Shown: positions 4,327 to 33,222 of the stretch, in pieces
Position numbering within the stretch: the stretch's first letter is position 1
Layout of the letters: every line of letters begins with the position of its first letter
IMG/VR virus record: IMGVR_UViG_3300046507_000899
Location: 1-33,765 of that record
Length of the DNA: 33,765 nucleotides
Reading direction: 5' to 3' (one strand)
Source: a virus
Notes under the pieces: model-generated
Told to the model about the DNA's origin: nothing
Database searches by the model: none
The model's input: the letters and a program-made list of their open reading frames with translations, nothing else
Translations under genes and position numbers: made by a program

Positions 4327-7300
4327 TTATGCGGGAACCGTGTAGAGCGCAGTACCGCCCTTCGTCGCGCGTTGGAGAGTATCGGCGGTGCTTTGCGAAG
4401 CCTTCGCGGTCTTTTTGCTTTCGTCGTGCATCAGGCCGCTTTGCTCGATCAGCGTGTCAAGCCGATCGACCAACGCCTGGCTGCTGCCGAGCATGCCCGA
4501 CGTCTGGCTGGCGGTGTACACGCGTGCCGGTTGCTGAAAGTCCACCAGCTCAGGGCCGCGCTCGCCGACCAGCGACAAGCCGCTGGCGATGCCGCCGTTG
4601 GCGTGCGCGCCGATGCCGGCGCCGGCCAGGGCCTGGGCGAACGACTGCGCCACGTTGCCGGCGCCAGCTATCGTGCCCTGCTTGCCTTTGATCGCGCTGT
4701 CGAGCGCGGCCTGCACGGCAGAGAAATCTTTCGCGTACTGGATGACCGAGTCGGTCGCCTTGGCTGCTGTCAGGAAGGTAGTGGCCGCCGCCTGCAGGTC
4801 ATTGGGCCCGGCAGCTTCGAACTGCGCCTTGGCCACGGTGTACTGATCCTGCTTCGACAGCGGCGACTGATCGCCCACGTACAGGCTGTCCTTGAACTTC
4901 TTGAAGGTGTCGATGGCCGACTTGGCCGCGTCGACGGTAGCCTGGATGCCCTGCGCGAAACCACTAAGCGCATCGGCGGCCGCCTGCTGGCTTGCTGCCG
5001 CCGCCTGCACCGCGTACAGCTGCTCCGTAGCGCCGCGTAGCGCCGGATCCATCGCGGCCAAGGCGGCGATGTGCTGCTGCTCGAGCACGGCGGCCGCGCC
5101 GGCTTTATCGCCGGTCACCTGGTAAATCTGCGCCTGGATGTCGAGCAAGCTGTTGGACGTCGCAAGGGCGTCCGCAGCCGCCTTATCGGATGCGGCCTTT
5201 GCTGTCGCTGCAGCTTGCGCGTCCCAGGTAGCTTGCGTGGCTGCCGCCAGCGCCGGCGACAGGCCGACCAGCGCTGCCTCGTGCTGCTGCTCCAACACTG
5301 CGGCGGCGCCGGCCGCATCGCCCGTGGCCGCATAGAGTTGCGCCTGCTGGTCGAGGATCTTGGCTTGGTCATCGGCTGCGGCAGTGGCGGCCGCTGCAGC
5401 CGCCGCAGATGCGTCCTGTTTCGCCTGTTCGGCCTGCACCTGGTCGAACAGCGCCTTATTGCTGTCGTCGATAGCATCGCGCTGCAGCGCAGTTAGCTGG
5501 GCCGCCGTCAGCGTCAACTTGTTGAGCTGATTCTGGAGGTCCGCATGCTCGCTCGCCACGTCGCTAGCCGACCTCGTCACTGACACCAGCCCTCCCAGGG
5601 CATTGGTTAATCCATCCGTGTAGTCGGCGGCCTGCTTGAACTGCGGCGCCAGCGCGAGTAGCGCCGCATATTGTGCCTGGCCGGCGGCGGTGGCCAGCGC
5701 TCCCGACTGCGTCAATTTCAGCACGGCGTCAGCATATTCCTGCGTCGTGTTCACGCCAGCCATGCCGAGGGATGCCAGCGACGCCTTGACGTCATCGACG
5801 ATCGGCGCGATCTGCTGCGCCGGCGTCAGGAAGTTTTCGGCAAAATAGGTCGTGCCGCTGGTCAGGCTGTCGAGCGAGCCGGCCGCCTTGATCAGGCCTT
5901 CCGAAAAACCGATGGCCGCCGTACCTGTAGCGCCAAACGCTGACTGCGCGGTCGCCCCGAGCGTCTTGAGCACCAGGTCAACGCCAGCGTAATCGGTGCT
6001 GACCCGCTGCAGCGTTGCGCTCAGCGTTTCGCCCGTCGCCTGAAAGCTGGCCAGGTTTGGTACGAGCTCGACCGCAATCGTATCGGCAACGCCGCTAAAG
6101 AAGTCCGCAACGGCCTGCTGGTCTTTGGTGGCGTCGCCGGTGATGGTGATGTTGAGGGCTTGAGACCGTGTCGCCAGACTGCTCGCGTCCACACCCAATG
6201 TGGTGGCCAATGCGCCGCTAATCGCCCGGATCGACGCATAGGAGTCCGTAAATGCTTTTGCCGTGGTGTCATCGACTGGCGAAGTATCCGTGCCATTTTT
6301 GTCACTGCGGAACCAGCCGCCGTCCTGGTGCCAGGTCGCTACATTATTTCCGGTGAAGGCGGCGTTGCCATTCAGCGCGCCCTGGATGCTTTGCGACGTG
6401 ACCTCTTTATTGCCCATGCCGAACGCGCGGTTGGCGAGGCCGCCGACCAAGCCGCCGATCAGGGCCCCGACAGCCGTACCGAGAACTGGCAGGATCACTG
6501 TGCCGATTGCGGCGCCAGCTGCAACGCCGGTGTTCACCGTGCCGTTGCTTCCGTATTCACCTGAGATAGCGCGTCCGCCGTACACGCCGCCCAGCACGCC
6601 GGCACCGATTGAGCCAGCTGCGCCTAGCGCGGCGCCGGCGGAGGATCCGGCAGTCAGGGCGGAAGCGGTTTCGGTCGCACCAGCTGCCGAATACGCTTGC
6701 GCGGCGGCCGCGGCCTGCGATGCTGTCAACCCCATTCCGGAGCCGAAGGCGGAAATGGCAGAGGAGCCGATCAGGTTGCCGAAGCCAGCCACCGCAGTGC
6801 CCAAGCTCGATCCCAGCGCCATCGAATAGGTATCATATGCGGCCTTGCCAGTTTGCAACAGACTCGTGACACCAGAAGTTCCTGAAGAGCCGCCTCCGCC
6901 GGCCAGGCTCGCAGCATTGGCCAAGCCAGACAATCCGAGGGAATTGGCGCCGCTGACCACGACCTGCATGACAAACGGCTTCAGGAACATCTGATAGATT
7001 TCGTCGATCAGATTTTTCTTGAATTTGTTTTTTAGGTCGGTCGTGAACGAATTCCATGCGCCGCTGACGTTCGACATCGACGCCTCCAGGCCGCTCTCGA
7101 AGGTGTCGTCGATCGATTTGATCATATCGTTCCAGACGGGCTGCACCTTCTGGATCTGCTGCGTCAGTGCGCGCGCCATGTCGTTGGCCTGCTTGACCAG
7201 CGCGCTGTTGTTGGAACTGGCCGCCAGCACCTGCAGCTGGGTGACGTAGTCCTGCAGCGCCGGGATCGCTTTCTCACGGATCGAGTCGGCCACGCCGGCG

Positions 7301-18702: not shown

Positions 18703-20241
18703 TTACCGGTCGTTTAGATAATCGTCGAGGTTGCTGTCTTGGCTTTCTGCTTGCGGCCTCACACCTACTGCCATGGCCAGCGCGACCATGCCATCGATGC
18801 GGCCTGTCGCCTTGCCTTTGACGAATTTGCGGTTCTCCGACGGATCCTTGACGACCGTCGCATTCGCAGCGCACATCGACAGCACCGGATGATTCTCGTG
18901 TCGCAGCTTTCGCGACAGCAGCAACGATTCCAGTTCGCGGATCGCCGGCGACATCGAAACGAAGCCCTGCCCGAACTCGACAAACAGCGCCAGCTCTTCC
19001 GGACTGAAACCGGCCCGCACCAACCACGGCAACAGGAATTTCATGTTGTAGCGGTCGAACGCCAGGGCGCGGACCGTGTACCGATCGAAAACCTGGCGCA
19101 GATGCGCCGCAATGAACTCGTACTCGATCGCGGCGCCCGGCGTCGTCTGCAGGTAGCCCTGTTGCTGCCACAAGTCGTAGGGAACTCGATCGGCCCGGGA
19201 TTTTTCAGCCAGTCCGGCCTCCGGTAGCCAGAACGTCGGTTCTACGCCCCAGTTCTCCTCCTGCTCGGAGATCATCACCAGCGCCGTCAGGTCGCTGACG
19301 CTGGATAGATCCAGGCCGGCAAACACTTCCGCGCCGCGCTCAAACGGCGCCGGCGCGCCGCCGTTCTCCTGCCACACCGAGCGCGTCACAAACGGGCTGC
19401 GCGCCTCGACGCGCTGGTTCAAAATCAGGTTGCGGTAGCCTGCCTCGGCGCTGGGCATGCGCTTCGCGTCCGACGCCTGCCGGAAGACCTCTTCCTTATT
19501 CATGAAGTCGTCGAAATGCGGGTTCGCCGCACGGATCGCCTCCTCGCTGAATGGGTCCAGGTCCAGAGGTGCCGTGCACAGCTCGACCTTGATACGCGGG
19601 TCGGCGCCGGTCAAGCCATCGTCGATCAACAGGCTGAGCAGGTCCGCATCGGTCGGCGCCTGCGTCGAAATTACGATCGACAGTGGCGATTCCTGGGCGG
19701 CGCTGGCCGTTTCCAGTGCCTCATACAGTTCCGACCGCGGCCCTTTCACCTGGCCCAGCTCGTCGTGCACCACAAACACGGGACTGAGGCCGTATGCCGT
19801 GGCCGCGTCAGCGCTGAGAGCGCGGTAAAGCGTGCCGATTTCCTGGCAGTGCAGCTGCTTGGCCGTGTCACGCACGCCCACATATTCGGACAGATCGGGC
19901 GACATGCGCACCACCTTAGCCGCCAGCGCGAACAAAATCGCCGCCTGATCGCGCGATTGCGCCGCACTGTAAAGCTGGCTGTTCGGCTTGGCCTCCGGTC
20001 CGCACAGGTGGAGCAGCAGCAGGAAGGCAGACAGCGCTGTCTTCGCGTTCTTGCGGGCCATCGACAGGATGAACACGCGCGTGGGCGAGTCGTAAATCCG
20101 GCAGATCCAGCGGCGCTGGTGCCTTGTCAATTTCACGGGCTTGCCGACCAGGCGCCCCTCGGGAATGCGACAATGCTCTTCGATCCAGGCGATGTTACGT
20201 TCGCCCCGGGTCAGTTTCTTTCGTCGAGTGCCAGTTCCCAC
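18703..20241 (-). CDS. terminase large subunit (TerL)
   Basis: 512 aa. The packaging motor: an N-terminal ATPase pumps DNA into the procapsid and a C-terminal RNase-H-like nuclease cuts it. Seen: a Walker A-like SMARKNAKT at 60-68 (the variant form of Terminase_1/HK97 TerL), Walker B FVVHDELG at 156-163 with its Asp-Glu, a coupling region with STQAPTDADL (192-201), and the nuclease start FAGLDLSSVSDLTAL with D312. A late KGKATGRIDGMVALAMAVG near the end also fits. The start is GTG 20241, inside the last 31 bases of TerS; AAGG is ten bases upstream. Confidence 0.94.
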   Translation of the reverse strand: MGTGTRRKKLTRGERNIAWIEEHCRIPEGRLVGKPVKLTRHQRRWICRIYDSPTRVFILSMARKNAKTALSAFLLLLHLCGPEAKPNSQLYSAAQSRDQAAILFALAAKVVRMSPDLSEYVGVRDTAKQLHCQEIGTLYRALSADAATAYGLSPVFVVHDELGQVKGPRSELYEALETASAAQESPLSIVISTQAPTDADLLSLLIDDGLTGADPRIKVELCTAPLDLDPFSEEAIRAANPHFDDFMNKEEVFRQASDAKRMPSAEAGYRNLILNQRVEARSPFVTRSVWQENGGAPAPFERGAEVFAGLDLSSVSDLTALVMISEQEENWGVEPTFWLPEAGLAEKSRADRVPYDLWQQQGYLQTTPGAAIEYEFIAAHLRQVFDRYTVRALAFDRYNMKFLLPWLVRAGFSPEELALFVEFGQGFVSMSPAIRELESLLLSRKLRHENHPVLSMCAANATVVKDPSENRKFVKGKATGRIDGMVALAMAVGVRPQAESQDSNLDDYLNDR

Positions 20242-20672
20242 GGTTTGCGTGCCTTTTTCTGATTGCCGATGGTGCGGCCGACCGTGGTCGGATGCTCGAC
20301 GGCCTGCCGCGTGATGCGTAGCCGCGTCGCCAGCGATGACGCCGCCCGGCTCTCGCGCTCGGACATGGCCAGCAAACGGTCGTAGCGTTTCAATCCGTCG
20401 TCATCGGCCAGCCAAGAGCGGTCGAAATTGATCAGCTCGTCGGCCAGCAGGCGCGCCTGCACGATGTGCCGGCAGTAGAGTTCCAGCAGTGGCGCATGCG
20501 TCGGCGTAAAGGCGCTGGCCGGCTGGTCGTTGACGACCTCGGCCCACACCAGCTGCTCGGAATCGCTCATGTGCAGCGGGGCGGCCAAGCGGCTTGCCTC
20601 ACGGACGAGTGGCGCGAGGCCCATGCCGACGGTTTCAAGCGCCGCCGCTGATTTTCTGCCTCGTGTCGCCAT
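20211..20672 (-). CDS. terminase small subunit (TerS, P27-like)
   Basis: 153 aa. Recognises the packaging site and feeds DNA to TerL. Helical and basic at the C-terminus. LRITRQAVEHPTTVGRTIGN and LLELYCRHIVQARLLADELI resemble P27-family small terminases. The gene overlaps TerL by 31 bases and follows a 123-bp gap after an HNH gene, as in HK97-like cos phages. The ATG at 20672 has no good SD within ten bases (an AAGG is 12 away), so translation may be weak. Confidence 0.82.
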   Translation of the reverse strand: MATRGRKSAAALETVGMGLAPLVREASRLAAPLHMSDSEQLVWAEVVNDQPASAFTPTHAPLLELYCRHIVQARLLADELINFDRSWLADDDGLKRYDRLLAMSERESRAASSLATRLRITRQAVEHPTTVGRTIGNQKKARKPWELALDERN

Positions 20673-22007: not shown

Positions 22008-22310
22008 CTACTCCCCCGACAAAATAAACTGGTGTTGGAAGTAGCTGAGCGCAACCTCTTCTGCTGGGGCATCCGACTTCCACGATGTGATCCAAAAGAA
22101 CAGGTGCCTGGATATCGCACCATCACCGTCTTGATACAGGTGACGCCATCCGTCATGCTCGAAGTGGGCGATGCACATCATCGACCCATGATCAACATGC
22201 TCGATCTGAAAAACTTTGACCGGCCGGAGCAATGCCAATGCGATCAGCGTGTCACTCTCGGGAACCTCGCGAGTGAATTCGTGAACGTCCTGATTAGAAG
22301 TGATGGCCAT
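22008..22310 (-). CDS. first late gene, unknown 100-aa protein
   Basis: 100 aa from MAITSNQDVHEFTREVPESD. It is acidic, with several aromatic and His residues (IEHVDHGSMMCIAHFEHDGW and HLFFWITSWKSDAPAEE). No membrane helix or known motif. AAGG lies five bases before the ATG at 22310. It is the first gene after the pR'-like promoter and its leader terminator, so it may be the first product of antiterminated late transcription. Function not recognised. Confidence 0.7.
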   Translation of the reverse strand: MAITSNQDVHEFTREVPESDTLIALALLRPVKVFQIEHVDHGSMMCIAHFEHDGWRHLYQDGDGAISRHLFFWITSWKSDAPAEEVALSYFQHQFILSGE

Positions 22311-22339: not shown

Positions 22340-22369
22340 AAAAAGCCCACGACCGCGAGGTGGTGGGCT
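22340..22369 (-). terminator. leader terminator just downstream of the late promoter (tR'-like)
   Basis: On the minus strand AGCCCAC pairs with GTGGGCT around a 12-base loop that can extend the stem, followed by TTTTG. It lies about 40-70 bases after the expected start of the promoter at 22418-22446 and before the first late gene. It also closes the PEP-CTERM gene at 22471. Confidence 0.85.
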
Positions 22370-22417
22370 TCTGCTGCCGAACTGCTTGACGCAATTTCGA
22401 CGTGTATATAAAAAGCG

Positions 22418-22446
22418 ACTATACCGGACGGGTTTGTCCGGGGCAA
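22418..22446 (-). promoter_or_regulatory. candidate late promoter (pR'-like) with inverted repeat in the spacer
   Basis: On the minus strand -35 TTGCCC (22441-22446), a 17-base spacer and -10 TATAGT (22418-22423). The inverted repeat CCGGAC-N6-GTCCGG (22424-22441) fills the spacer and reaches into the -35. In lambda the Q binding element lies between -35 and -10 of pR'. A terminator follows at 22340-22369, and a T-rich stretch (CGCTTTTTATATA) occupies the initial transcribed region, where lambda has a Q-dependent pause. Confidence 0.68.
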
Positions 22447-22470
22447 GAAGTTTATCGTAATATTTAAAGT

Positions 22471-22995
22471 CTACTTCGCGCGACGCCGAGCCGCGAAGGT
22501 GATCAGGCCCAACCCAGCCAACAGCATGCCATACGTCTCAGGCTCGGGAATTGGCGTTAAGGCTGTCACTTTTATATCCACGGGCGAGCTGATCCAGTTT
22601 GTCCTCGCGCCGGGCACTGTATAAACGAAATAGCCAGTGTCAGCATAGACGCTTTCGAAAATAAAGCCATCTCCGCTGCCGGCACGCAATCCACCAGGAA
22701 TTGGAGTGCTAACAATTACCATGTACTCATCGGAATAGAGCCCGATTTCAGAAAGATCAAAACGGTGTCCATCGAAAGTTAAATTTACACTTTTGATACT
22801 GTCCCATTGAACACCTTCGCCAGCGGCAGAATAGACAATTGAACCTTTGATCAGATCTTCTGGTGCTGGTATCGAGGATTGCGTGGAAATATCCGTAAAG
22901 TTTGATGCAGTAAAGTCAATTCTGAAATCTTCCGCCTTGGCCCCACTAACGCAAAAAAAGAAAGCTGCCGACAGTGCCGCGATGCGCATCAACAT
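22471..22995 (-). CDS. PEP-CTERM sorted exoprotein, prophage moron
   Basis: 174 aa. It has an N-terminal signal peptide (RIAALSAAFFFCVSGAKA, cleavage likely near 21) and a canonical C-terminal sorting tag at about 150-174: PEPETYGMLLAGLGLITFAA followed by RRRAK. PEP-CTERM proteins are exported, cut by an exosortase at the tag and usually placed on the surface or in exopolysaccharide. The middle part is beta-rich and resembles no enzyme I know. GGGGA seven bases before the ATG at 22995 fixes the start. It has an AT-rich promoter region upstream and a terminator downstream, the layout of a phage moron. Its codons are clearly more AT-rich than the neighbours, which suggests separate acquisition. 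Confidence 0.88.
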   Translation of the reverse strand: MLMRIAALSAAFFFCVSGAKAEDFRIDFTASNFTDISTQSSIPAPEDLIKGSIVYSAAGEGVQWDSIKSVNLTFDGHRFDLSEIGLYSDEYMVIVSTPIPGGLRAGSGDGFIFESVYADTGYFVYTVPGARTNWISSPVDIKVTALTPIPEPETYGMLLAGLGLITFAARRRAK

Positions 22996-23068
22996 AACCG
23001 TTCCCCATATAGTTATTGGTGTTTTTATATTATCATATATATAAATAATTATTGGATTAATACCTTTT
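22996..23068 (-). promoter_or_regulatory. AT-rich region likely holding the moron promoter
   Basis: This short gap is very AT-rich in an otherwise GC-rich region. On the minus strand it includes GATAAT and TATAAA hexamers as possible -10 boxes, but no strong -35 at the right spacing. I infer an independent promoter for the PEP-CTERM gene without fixing its boxes. Confidence 0.45.
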
Positions 23069-23614
23069 TTATTCGTCGGTGGTATCAGCGCACATGTCCT
23101 CCAGCGAGACGCCAGCGCCGGCCTGGGCCTTGAGGTCGAGTTCCTTAAGCGCCCTGTGGATGCGCGCCTTCTGGTCGTAGGCCGTTGCCTTCGCGACGTT
23201 CAGCTCCTTCGCGGCGGCCGTGATCGACACGCCGCGCTCGAAGAACGAGCGGATGATGGCGGCGCGCATGTTCCGCAGCGTCATGCCCGTGTGCAGGCTC
23301 ATGGCCCATTCCGTCAGCGTGGCGATCGCCTCGCGGTACTGGTCGGTGATCTTGTCTTTGTTTGCGCAGCACGGGCATTCCTCAAAGCGCGGCGCATACC
23401 GGGCGACGATACAGGCGCGCTGCAGCACGGGCAGCTTGTCCAGGCGCGCCAGGATGATGCCCGACTGCGCCGCGCCATCGAGCGCCACAAGGCCCTTGCC
23501 GCTGCCGATCCCGGTCTTCATCATCTTGGCCATCGGCGAGAGCGCGTACTGCTGCGATGAATAATTGAACGCGTACATCAGCGCGTCGTGCGTGTTTTTG
23601 AAAAGCTCTTCCAT
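23069..23614 (-). CDS. candidate Q-like late antiterminator / DNA-binding regulator
   Basis: 181 aa. Its N-terminal half (MEELFKNTHDALMYAFNYSS, IGSGKGLVALDGAAQSGIIL) resembles a family seen in Burkholderiales phages at the place of Q. A Cys cluster ECPCCANKDK (79-88) could be part of a metal site. Residues about 128-157 form a helix-turn-helix of sigma region 4 type (VSITAAAKELNVAKATAYDQ), as in P22/DUF1133-type Q proteins. AGGGA is six bases upstream of the ATG. It is the last early gene before the late promoter at 22418-22446. The antiterminator role is inferred from HTH, Cys cluster and position; a repressor or activator would look similar. Confidence 0.6.
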   Translation of the reverse strand: MEELFKNTHDALMYAFNYSSQQYALSPMAKMMKTGIGSGKGLVALDGAAQSGIILARLDKLPVLQRACIVARYAPRFEECPCCANKDKITDQYREAIATLTEWAMSLHTGMTLRNMRAAIIRSFFERGVSITAAAKELNVAKATAYDQKARIHRALKELDLKAQAGAGVSLEDMCADTTDE

Positions 23615-32624: not shown

Positions 32625-32969
32625 TCAGTCCGTTATTTTGCTCAATTCTTCGACACATCGGCGGCATGCTTCGGCGCAATCTTTGCAATGTAGGTGCGAG
32701 TGCTTCGAGCACTCGTAAGCGCATGCCTTGCATACCTCAGCGCAGGAAAGCGAAATTAACGGCGCCATGGAGCTACCTCGGGCGAAGTAGCTTACCGCGA
32801 GCCGGCAAAATTGAGCGCAGTCGATATCTAATCCAATGCACGACGTCATCATCTTCACGTCTTCTTCTTGAAGGCATGCACTCGCACAGCGTTCACAGGC
32901 CAGGGCGCACTCGTTGCACGCGTTGATGAGGCTCTCAAAATGTGTGCTAACTTGGATGGAATTTGTCAT
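32625..32969 (-). CDS. cytosolic four-helix-bundle copper storage protein (Csp3-like)
   Basis: 114 aa with 16 Cys spaced along helices: CNECALACERCASAC (18-32), C44, C51 and C55, CAEVCKACAYEC (76-87) and CKDCAEACRRC (95-105), the DUF326 pattern. Csp proteins store many Cu(I) ions inside a tube of four helices lined with Cys. No Tat or Sec signal is present, so the cytosolic Csp3 form is likely. GGAG seven bases before the ATG at 32969 sets the start. It lies convergent with the DUF2158 gene, three bases apart, and could be host DNA or prophage cargo. Confidence 0.9.
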   Translation of the reverse strand: MTNSIQVSTHFESLINACNECALACERCASACLQEEDVKMMTSCIGLDIDCAQFCRLAVSYFARGSSMAPLISLSCAEVCKACAYECSKHSHLHCKDCAEACRRCVEELSKITD

Positions 32970-33222
32970 TTTTGATCTCCAGTTTCCTCGCATCTGCCAG
33001 TCAGATGCAGGAGTAAGCAAATCATCAATGAGATTGAATCTGAACGGTATCGGAGTAAAGAAATAAAATATGTAGGACCATTCCTGTAGTGTTATGGACG
33101 CAGAGCCACTGATTGAAACGCCAAGAATACGCAAACCTTCGCGCAGATGTCGAACCATTTTGGAAAACACCTTGTGCGCGGAAGCGGCCAGGTTGGCTCA
33201 GCTTCGGCCGACTGAGGTCGCA

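Follow-up and report, generated by a model that had tools for sequence, protein, structure and literature searches.

A palindrome in the promoter spacer and a predicted AlpA-like fold point to a Q-type late-gene switch in a temperate-type phage

Antiterminators of known mechanism and the layout of the phage locus

For AlpA of Pseudomonas aeruginosa to act, the spacer of its promoter must contain an element, polymerase must undergo a sigma-dependent pause at a −10-like sequence, and a terminator must lie further downstream (PMC9371919; PMC7969949). A loop of AlpA, like one of 21Q from phage 21, forms a ring in the RNA exit channel of polymerase (PMC9371919; PMC6606751). 21Q has two half-sites in the spacer region, a sigma-dependent pause, helix-turn-helix (HTH) recognition, and a short leader (PMC6606751). 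GafZ, from the Caulobacter gene transfer agent (GTA), acts in antitermination together with GafY at a promoter with a near-perfect palindrome between its −35 and −10 elements and a terminator that comes after the first gene; mutation of the palindrome abolished GafZ enrichment and GTA output, and its authors report that it resembles known antiterminators neither in sequence nor in structure (PMC11150451). Because the GafZ palindrome has this mutational support, a symmetric spacer element is not without precedent. In phage lambda, Q, the late promoter pR', the terminator tR', and the late genes lie in this order, the binding element is in the promoter spacer, and polymerase pauses early.

The DNA analyzed here, which we call the window, corresponds to the 33,765 bases of an IMG/VR virus record. 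Close relatives were found within Duganella and Janthinobacterium genomes, and the host probably belongs to the Oxalobacteraceae. The minus strand presents the lambda order of gene, promoter, terminator, and late genes (Table 1). Direct reading bore out the anatomy described in the original prediction: the hexamers TTGCCC and TATAGT are separated by 17 bp, the inverted repeat CCGGAC-N6-GTCCGG fills the spacer and takes in the last base of the −35 element, an intrinsic terminator follows the promoter by about 70 nt, and a gene for a 181-residue HTH protein with a cysteine cluster lies upstream. Between this gene and the promoter is a PEP-CTERM gene that the prediction did not mention. The predicted leader RNA has a folding energy of −34 kcal/mol, compared to −17.2 in shuffles (z = −6.6). 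The terminase genes are followed on the same strand by genes for portal, protease, tape measure, tail fibre, and holin (PHROGs).

Like AlpA, the locus combines an element between −35 and −10, a −10-like element that may act as a pause site, and an intrinsic terminator downstream. The two differ in that AlpA is a chromosomal regulator whose targets are lysis genes, whereas phage late genes follow here; AlpA uses a single, non-palindromic GGGACG site at −25 to −20 with one protomer, whereas the phage family mostly has inverted repeats with arms that vary by subfamily; and the −10-like sequence of AlpA, CACGAT, lies at −1 to +5, whereas kATAC lies further downstream here. With 21Q the locus has in common two half-sites in the spacer region, a predicted HTH for recognition, and a short leader, but the 21Q half-sites are direct repeats of TGAGCA (PMC6606751), in contrast to the inverted repeats here.

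Table 1. Positions of the features discussed, in window coordinates
Feature	Position	Strand	Basis
Putative Q-type antiterminator gene, 181 aa	23069..23614	−	ORF; AlphaFold fold match; ~80 viral relatives
Candidate RNA-exit-channel segment, low-confidence loop, residues 28-47	23474..23533	−	invariant columns; pLDDT
Cysteine cluster CPCC, residues 80-83	23366..23377	−	70-sequence alignment
C-terminal HTH, residues ~131-157	23144..23224	−	model helices 131-137 and 142-170
Cargo gene, FxDxF-type PEP-CTERM protein, 174 aa	22471..22995	−	NF038126; PF07589
−35 element TTGCCC	22446-22441	−	sequence
Palindrome CCGGAC-AAACCC-GTCCGG, putative binding site for the 181-aa protein	22424..22441	−	sequence and relatives
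Palindrome arm CCGGAC	22441-22436	−	sequence
Palindrome arm GTCCGG	22429-22424	−	sequence
−10 element TATAGT	22423-22418	−	sequence; spacer 17 bp
Predicted transcription start	near 22411	−	sequence
Conserved initial transcribed element TATACACGTCGAAATTGCGTC (−10-like kATAC and pause-consensus-like TGYG)	22388..22408	−	31-sequence consensus
Intrinsic terminator AGCCCAC..GTGGGCTTTTT, tR'-like	22369-22340	−	sequence and leader RNA fold
First gene past the terminator, 100 aa, no family	22008..22310	−	Pfam, PHROGs, and NCBIfam searches
Second terminator-like hairpin GCCGCCA..TGGCGGC plus seven T	21931-21896	−	by eye
Start of late operon	18703..20672	−	PHROGs
Terminase small subunit	20211-20672	−	PHROGs
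Terminase large subunit	18703-20241	−	PHROGs
Protein resembling Csp1-type copper storage proteins	32625-33170	−	NCBIfam TIGR04401, below cut-off

Two further features of the window deserve mention. The second terminator-like hairpin comes after the first late gene, with similar hairpins seen by eye in L005 and L006, and may be a further stop signal for a modified polymerase to pass. Elsewhere, one gene encodes a protein resembling the four-helix-bundle Csp1-type copper storage proteins, which is unusual for a phage; its NCBIfam TIGR04401 score of 50.7 bits is below the cut-off of 100.

In statistics confined to the window, no element beats chance. Over 6 kb we counted 2 promoter-like sites (1.4 expected) and 4 terminators (6.5 expected; shuffle level); perfect 6-bp dyads with loops of 3–8 nt numbered 109, compared to 69–101 in eight resamples, and, allowing two mismatches at most, the specific dyad occurred 4 times against 2.9 expected. 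The significance of the module comes from comparison with relatives.

Linkage of the gene and the promoter module among viral relatives

A protein search returned six close relatives of the 181-residue protein, megablast against phages gave no match, and a profile search extended the family to 80 viral loci at 32–79% identity. An annotated phage collection held five distant records, and the four of these that are annotated call the protein hypothetical or leave it unnamed. All six close relatives have the same spacer palindrome, the ATACACGT element downstream, and a terminator, and the genes between protein and promoter vary or are missing among them. In a mostly mechanical screen that allowed hairpin loops of up to 16, the gene was followed by promoter, pause-like element, and terminator in no fewer than 68 of the 79 usable viral loci, L021 being unusable because its contig ends inside the gene. 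The module is 3 kb away in L029, recognizable variants were seen by eye in seven loci (L053, L057, L068, L069, L073, L081, and L094), and no module was present within the DNA examined of L028, L031, and L032. The gap between gene and promoter exceeds 160 nt in 14 of 73 loci, and the linkage persists across the intervening cargo genes.

The association also holds in reverse. Two patterns that combine only the transcribed element with the foot of the terminator, and contain neither gene nor dyad, matched 18 contigs among 2.9 million, and every one of these 18 viral contigs carries a family member upstream; the weakest match (E 7e-18) is to a gene truncated where its contig stops. The palindrome adjoining TATAGT was found in five contigs among the 2.9 million, four of them Q-family contigs. 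The fifth match (L016, 818–840) lies in a GC-rich, repetitive collagen-like gene, and we rejected it as a chance occurrence.

The cargo protein of the window scores 54.1 bits against NF038126 (cut-off 50) and matches PF07589 at 4.7e-9, and one full-length viral relative of it was found, in L128 at 36% identity. A PEP-CTERM/exosortase-sorted FxDxF protein encoded by a phage raises the possibility of lysogenic conversion of the host surface. Cargo in the slot changes from locus to locus (L022, L024, L026, L033, L051, L057, L066, L068, L073, and L081); a DrmC-like protein occupies it elsewhere, and toxin-antitoxin-like, HNH-like, and Hint-like genes and other unknowns were recognized by eye. The slot may be a hotspot for cargo or defence genes.

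In other relatives, gene and promoter overlap. In L005 and L007 (near 5500–5576), the palindrome is spanned by the final codons of the gene, whose TAG stop falls inside TATAGT, and in many distant relatives (L042, L050, L055, and others) the TGA stop forms part of the −35 sequence TTGAC. Where a gene end overlaps its own promoter in this way, coding and regulatory constraints share bases.

Dyad symmetry, recognition helices, and a fixed register

The spacers retain dyad symmetry while their sequences change. Among 30 distinct spacers, with five promoters that the terminator or −10 filter had missed added by hand, the longest perfect arm averaged 4.9 bp, compared to 3.27 in shuffled spacers (z = 11.4), and none of 2000 shuffles came near the observed mean. 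Besides the CCGGAC-N6-GTCCGG of the window, examples are TGGCGG-N6-CCGCCA, TGCGAG-N5-CTCGCA, TGAGAA-N5-TTCTCA, TTGTGTG-N5-CACACAA, GTGCA-N5-TGCAC, CGCCA-N5-TGGCG, TTTGCGG-N7-CCGCAAA, and TTTGGCACA-N4-TGTGCCAAA. The arms and the recognition helices of the proteins differ together between subfamilies: VxKATAYDQK pairs with arm CCGGAC, IPPRTAERH with TGGCGG, AHVNTVSKQN with TTGTGTG, and AHRNTVSAQN with GTGCA. The dyad is weak in L019, L020, L082, L084, and L092, and a perfect palindrome is therefore not obligatory. The pR' spacers of lambda and phi80 contain no comparable dyad.

In 31 non-redundant sequences, the initial transcribed region has the consensus [GT]ATAC-N10-TGYG-N-C, with an information content of 1.5–2.0 bits at ATAC and 1.8 bits at the T of TGYG. 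The kATAC part looks like a −10-like hexamer, and TGYG resembles the foot (T-G-Y-G) of the elemental pause consensus; because the hexamer lacks a T at position 6, a classical sigma-dependent pause is not certain. We also considered a conserved hairpin in this region and rejected it, since by eye the pairing is not kept across subfamilies; the region is accordingly read as a sequence element.

The distance from the dyad centre to ATAC is nearly constant at 25.8 nt (sd 0.84), or 26.0 nt (sd 0.40) without the outlier L040, whereas the distance from the centre to the −10 element ranges from 7 to 11.5 nt (sd 1.64) and that from −10 to ATAC has an sd of 1.68. The latter two distances compensate for each other (r = −0.87, permutation p = 5e-5), and do so among strict TTGAC promoters with 17-bp spacers (n = 11, p = 0.001), with p-values that are optimistic because the 16 distinct spacers fall into a few related classes of shared ancestry. 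With the distance from centre to ATAC fixed and the −10 element drifting, dyad and pause-like element move as a unit relative to the core promoter. Such a register would be expected if the protein binds DNA at a paused polymerase and would not be expected of an ordinary operator.

Predicted fold, alternative explanations, and a proposed mechanism

No Q family in Pfam, PHROGs, or NCBIfam matched the Q-like protein of the original prediction. The 181-residue protein hit no Pfam antitermination profile at E 0.1, nor did the 70 family members hit one at 0.01; PF06530 matched nowhere in the window; searches of Pfam, PHROGs, NCBIfam, and PDB sequences returned generic HTH and sigma region 4 matches only; hhalign comparisons with lambda Q and phi80 Q were not significant; and AlpA was not among the PDB sequences found with the family profile at E values up to 1.

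Structural comparison gave a different result. AlphaFold models of the window protein and of a second member, 34% identical to it and with a different dyad, have pLDDT values of 82.7 and 82.6, and for both of these divergent proteins AlpA (PDB 7xya, 7xyb) is the best fold match by a wide margin. In VIA-align, AlpA chain 7xya_G is the top match to the first model (Z 13.9 over 144 residues) and AlpA is again the top match to the second (Z 14.0 over 140 residues); the next matches are lambda Q (7ubn_Q, Z 7.7) and one at 5.8 for the first model, and one at 5.2 for the second. Foldseek also recovered AlpA (prob 1.00, E 5.8e-3). Identity to AlpA is about 19–20% in the structural alignment. 21Q is absent among the structural matches listed, which says nothing against a shared fold. 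A shared AlpA fold alone does not prove antiterminator function; the best reading of the protein is a Q-type processive antiterminator that has the AlpA fold and stands outside the lambda Q sequence family.

Conservation across 70 sequences picks out two further regions. In the cysteine cluster, C80 and C83 are invariant and C82 is nearly so. Most of the invariant residues (M28, G39, G41, L42, and G47) lie in or beside a loop that is modeled with low confidence (pLDDT < 50 at residues 31–44 of the window protein); by analogy with AlpA and 21Q, this conserved N-terminal loop could be the nozzle in the RNA exit channel. In the model of the 181-residue protein, the recognition helix begins near KATAYDQK.

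Dyads between −35 and −10 occupy typical operator positions of repressors and MerR-type activators, and the C-terminal HTH matches generic HTH and sigma region 4 profiles. Both facts would suit a conventional dyad-binding regulator of initiation, either MerR-like or an autoregulator, next to an incidental terminator. We consider this explanation improbable: the spacer has a normal length of 17 bp and needs no MerR-type untwisting, such a regulator has no need of a conserved transcribed element or of a terminator 25–60 nt past the start, the dyad keeps its register with the transcribed element and not with −10, and the overall fold is that of AlpA and Q and not of a repressor.

Still less probable is that the product of promoter and terminator is an attenuator leader or an independently functional small RNA of the phage, with the protein gene a neighbor by synteny only. 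A stable short RNA is indeed predicted, and lambda 6S-like RNAs offer a precedent, but mere synteny accords poorly with a linkage that survives intervening cargo and with dyad arms that change along with the recognition helix, and the part of the RNA conserved between subfamilies is short and has no common structure. The location of the PEP-CTERM gene directly upstream, along with the chance-level statistics of the window, might instead suggest an outlet for that cargo or a chance promoter in a cargo region; the comparative data already contradict this idea, which we regard as the least credible of all, as relatives with other cargo or none retain the module, and the promoter is directed away from the cargo gene.

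The conserved linkage, the persisting dyads, the registered pause-like element, and the AlpA/Q fold support the original prediction of a late switch resembling lambda pR'/tR' with a Q-like protein. It is very likely, taking all parts of this explanation jointly, that the phage is of the temperate type and that the locus is its late-gene switch, composed of a Q-type protein of AlpA fold, the palindrome, and the terminator. From this arrangement we infer the following sequence of events. Host sigma70 polymerase would start near position 22411 and, without the phage protein, would stop at the tR'-like terminator to leave an RNA of about 70 nt. The C-terminal HTH of the protein, as one protomer or two, would recognize the palindrome between −35 and −10, and the protein would load while the −10-like/TGYG element, about 26 nt past the palindrome centre, holds polymerase that still carries sigma. 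The conserved N-terminal loop would then move into the RNA exit channel, as the loops of AlpA and 21Q do, where we propose that it keeps hairpins from forming, so that polymerase passes terminators. Polymerase would thereby read past the first terminator and later ones into the operon that runs from terminase to holin.

On balance, we favor the broader view that proteins of the AlpA fold, in a branch widespread among phages, make up an additional class of Q-type antiterminators. They would load through a two-fold symmetric DNA element whose position depends on the pause element rather than on the core promoter, probably as two protomers on the inverted half-sites, of which only one protomer would become the RNA nozzle. 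Our best reading of the open-access literature is that a phage family with such a palindromic element is undescribed there; an earlier description elsewhere is possible. Under this reading, proteins that at least four annotated phage genomes list as hypothetical or leave without a name gain a proposed function, and a wide range of phage antiterminators is connected to AlpA. About 30 recognition helices come naturally matched with their palindromes; from these pairs one could read the DNA code that the proteins follow, and one could test directly whether the distance from the pause element governs where an antiterminator docks on paused polymerase. Orthogonal combinations of protein and site would also be useful as switches for terminator read-through.
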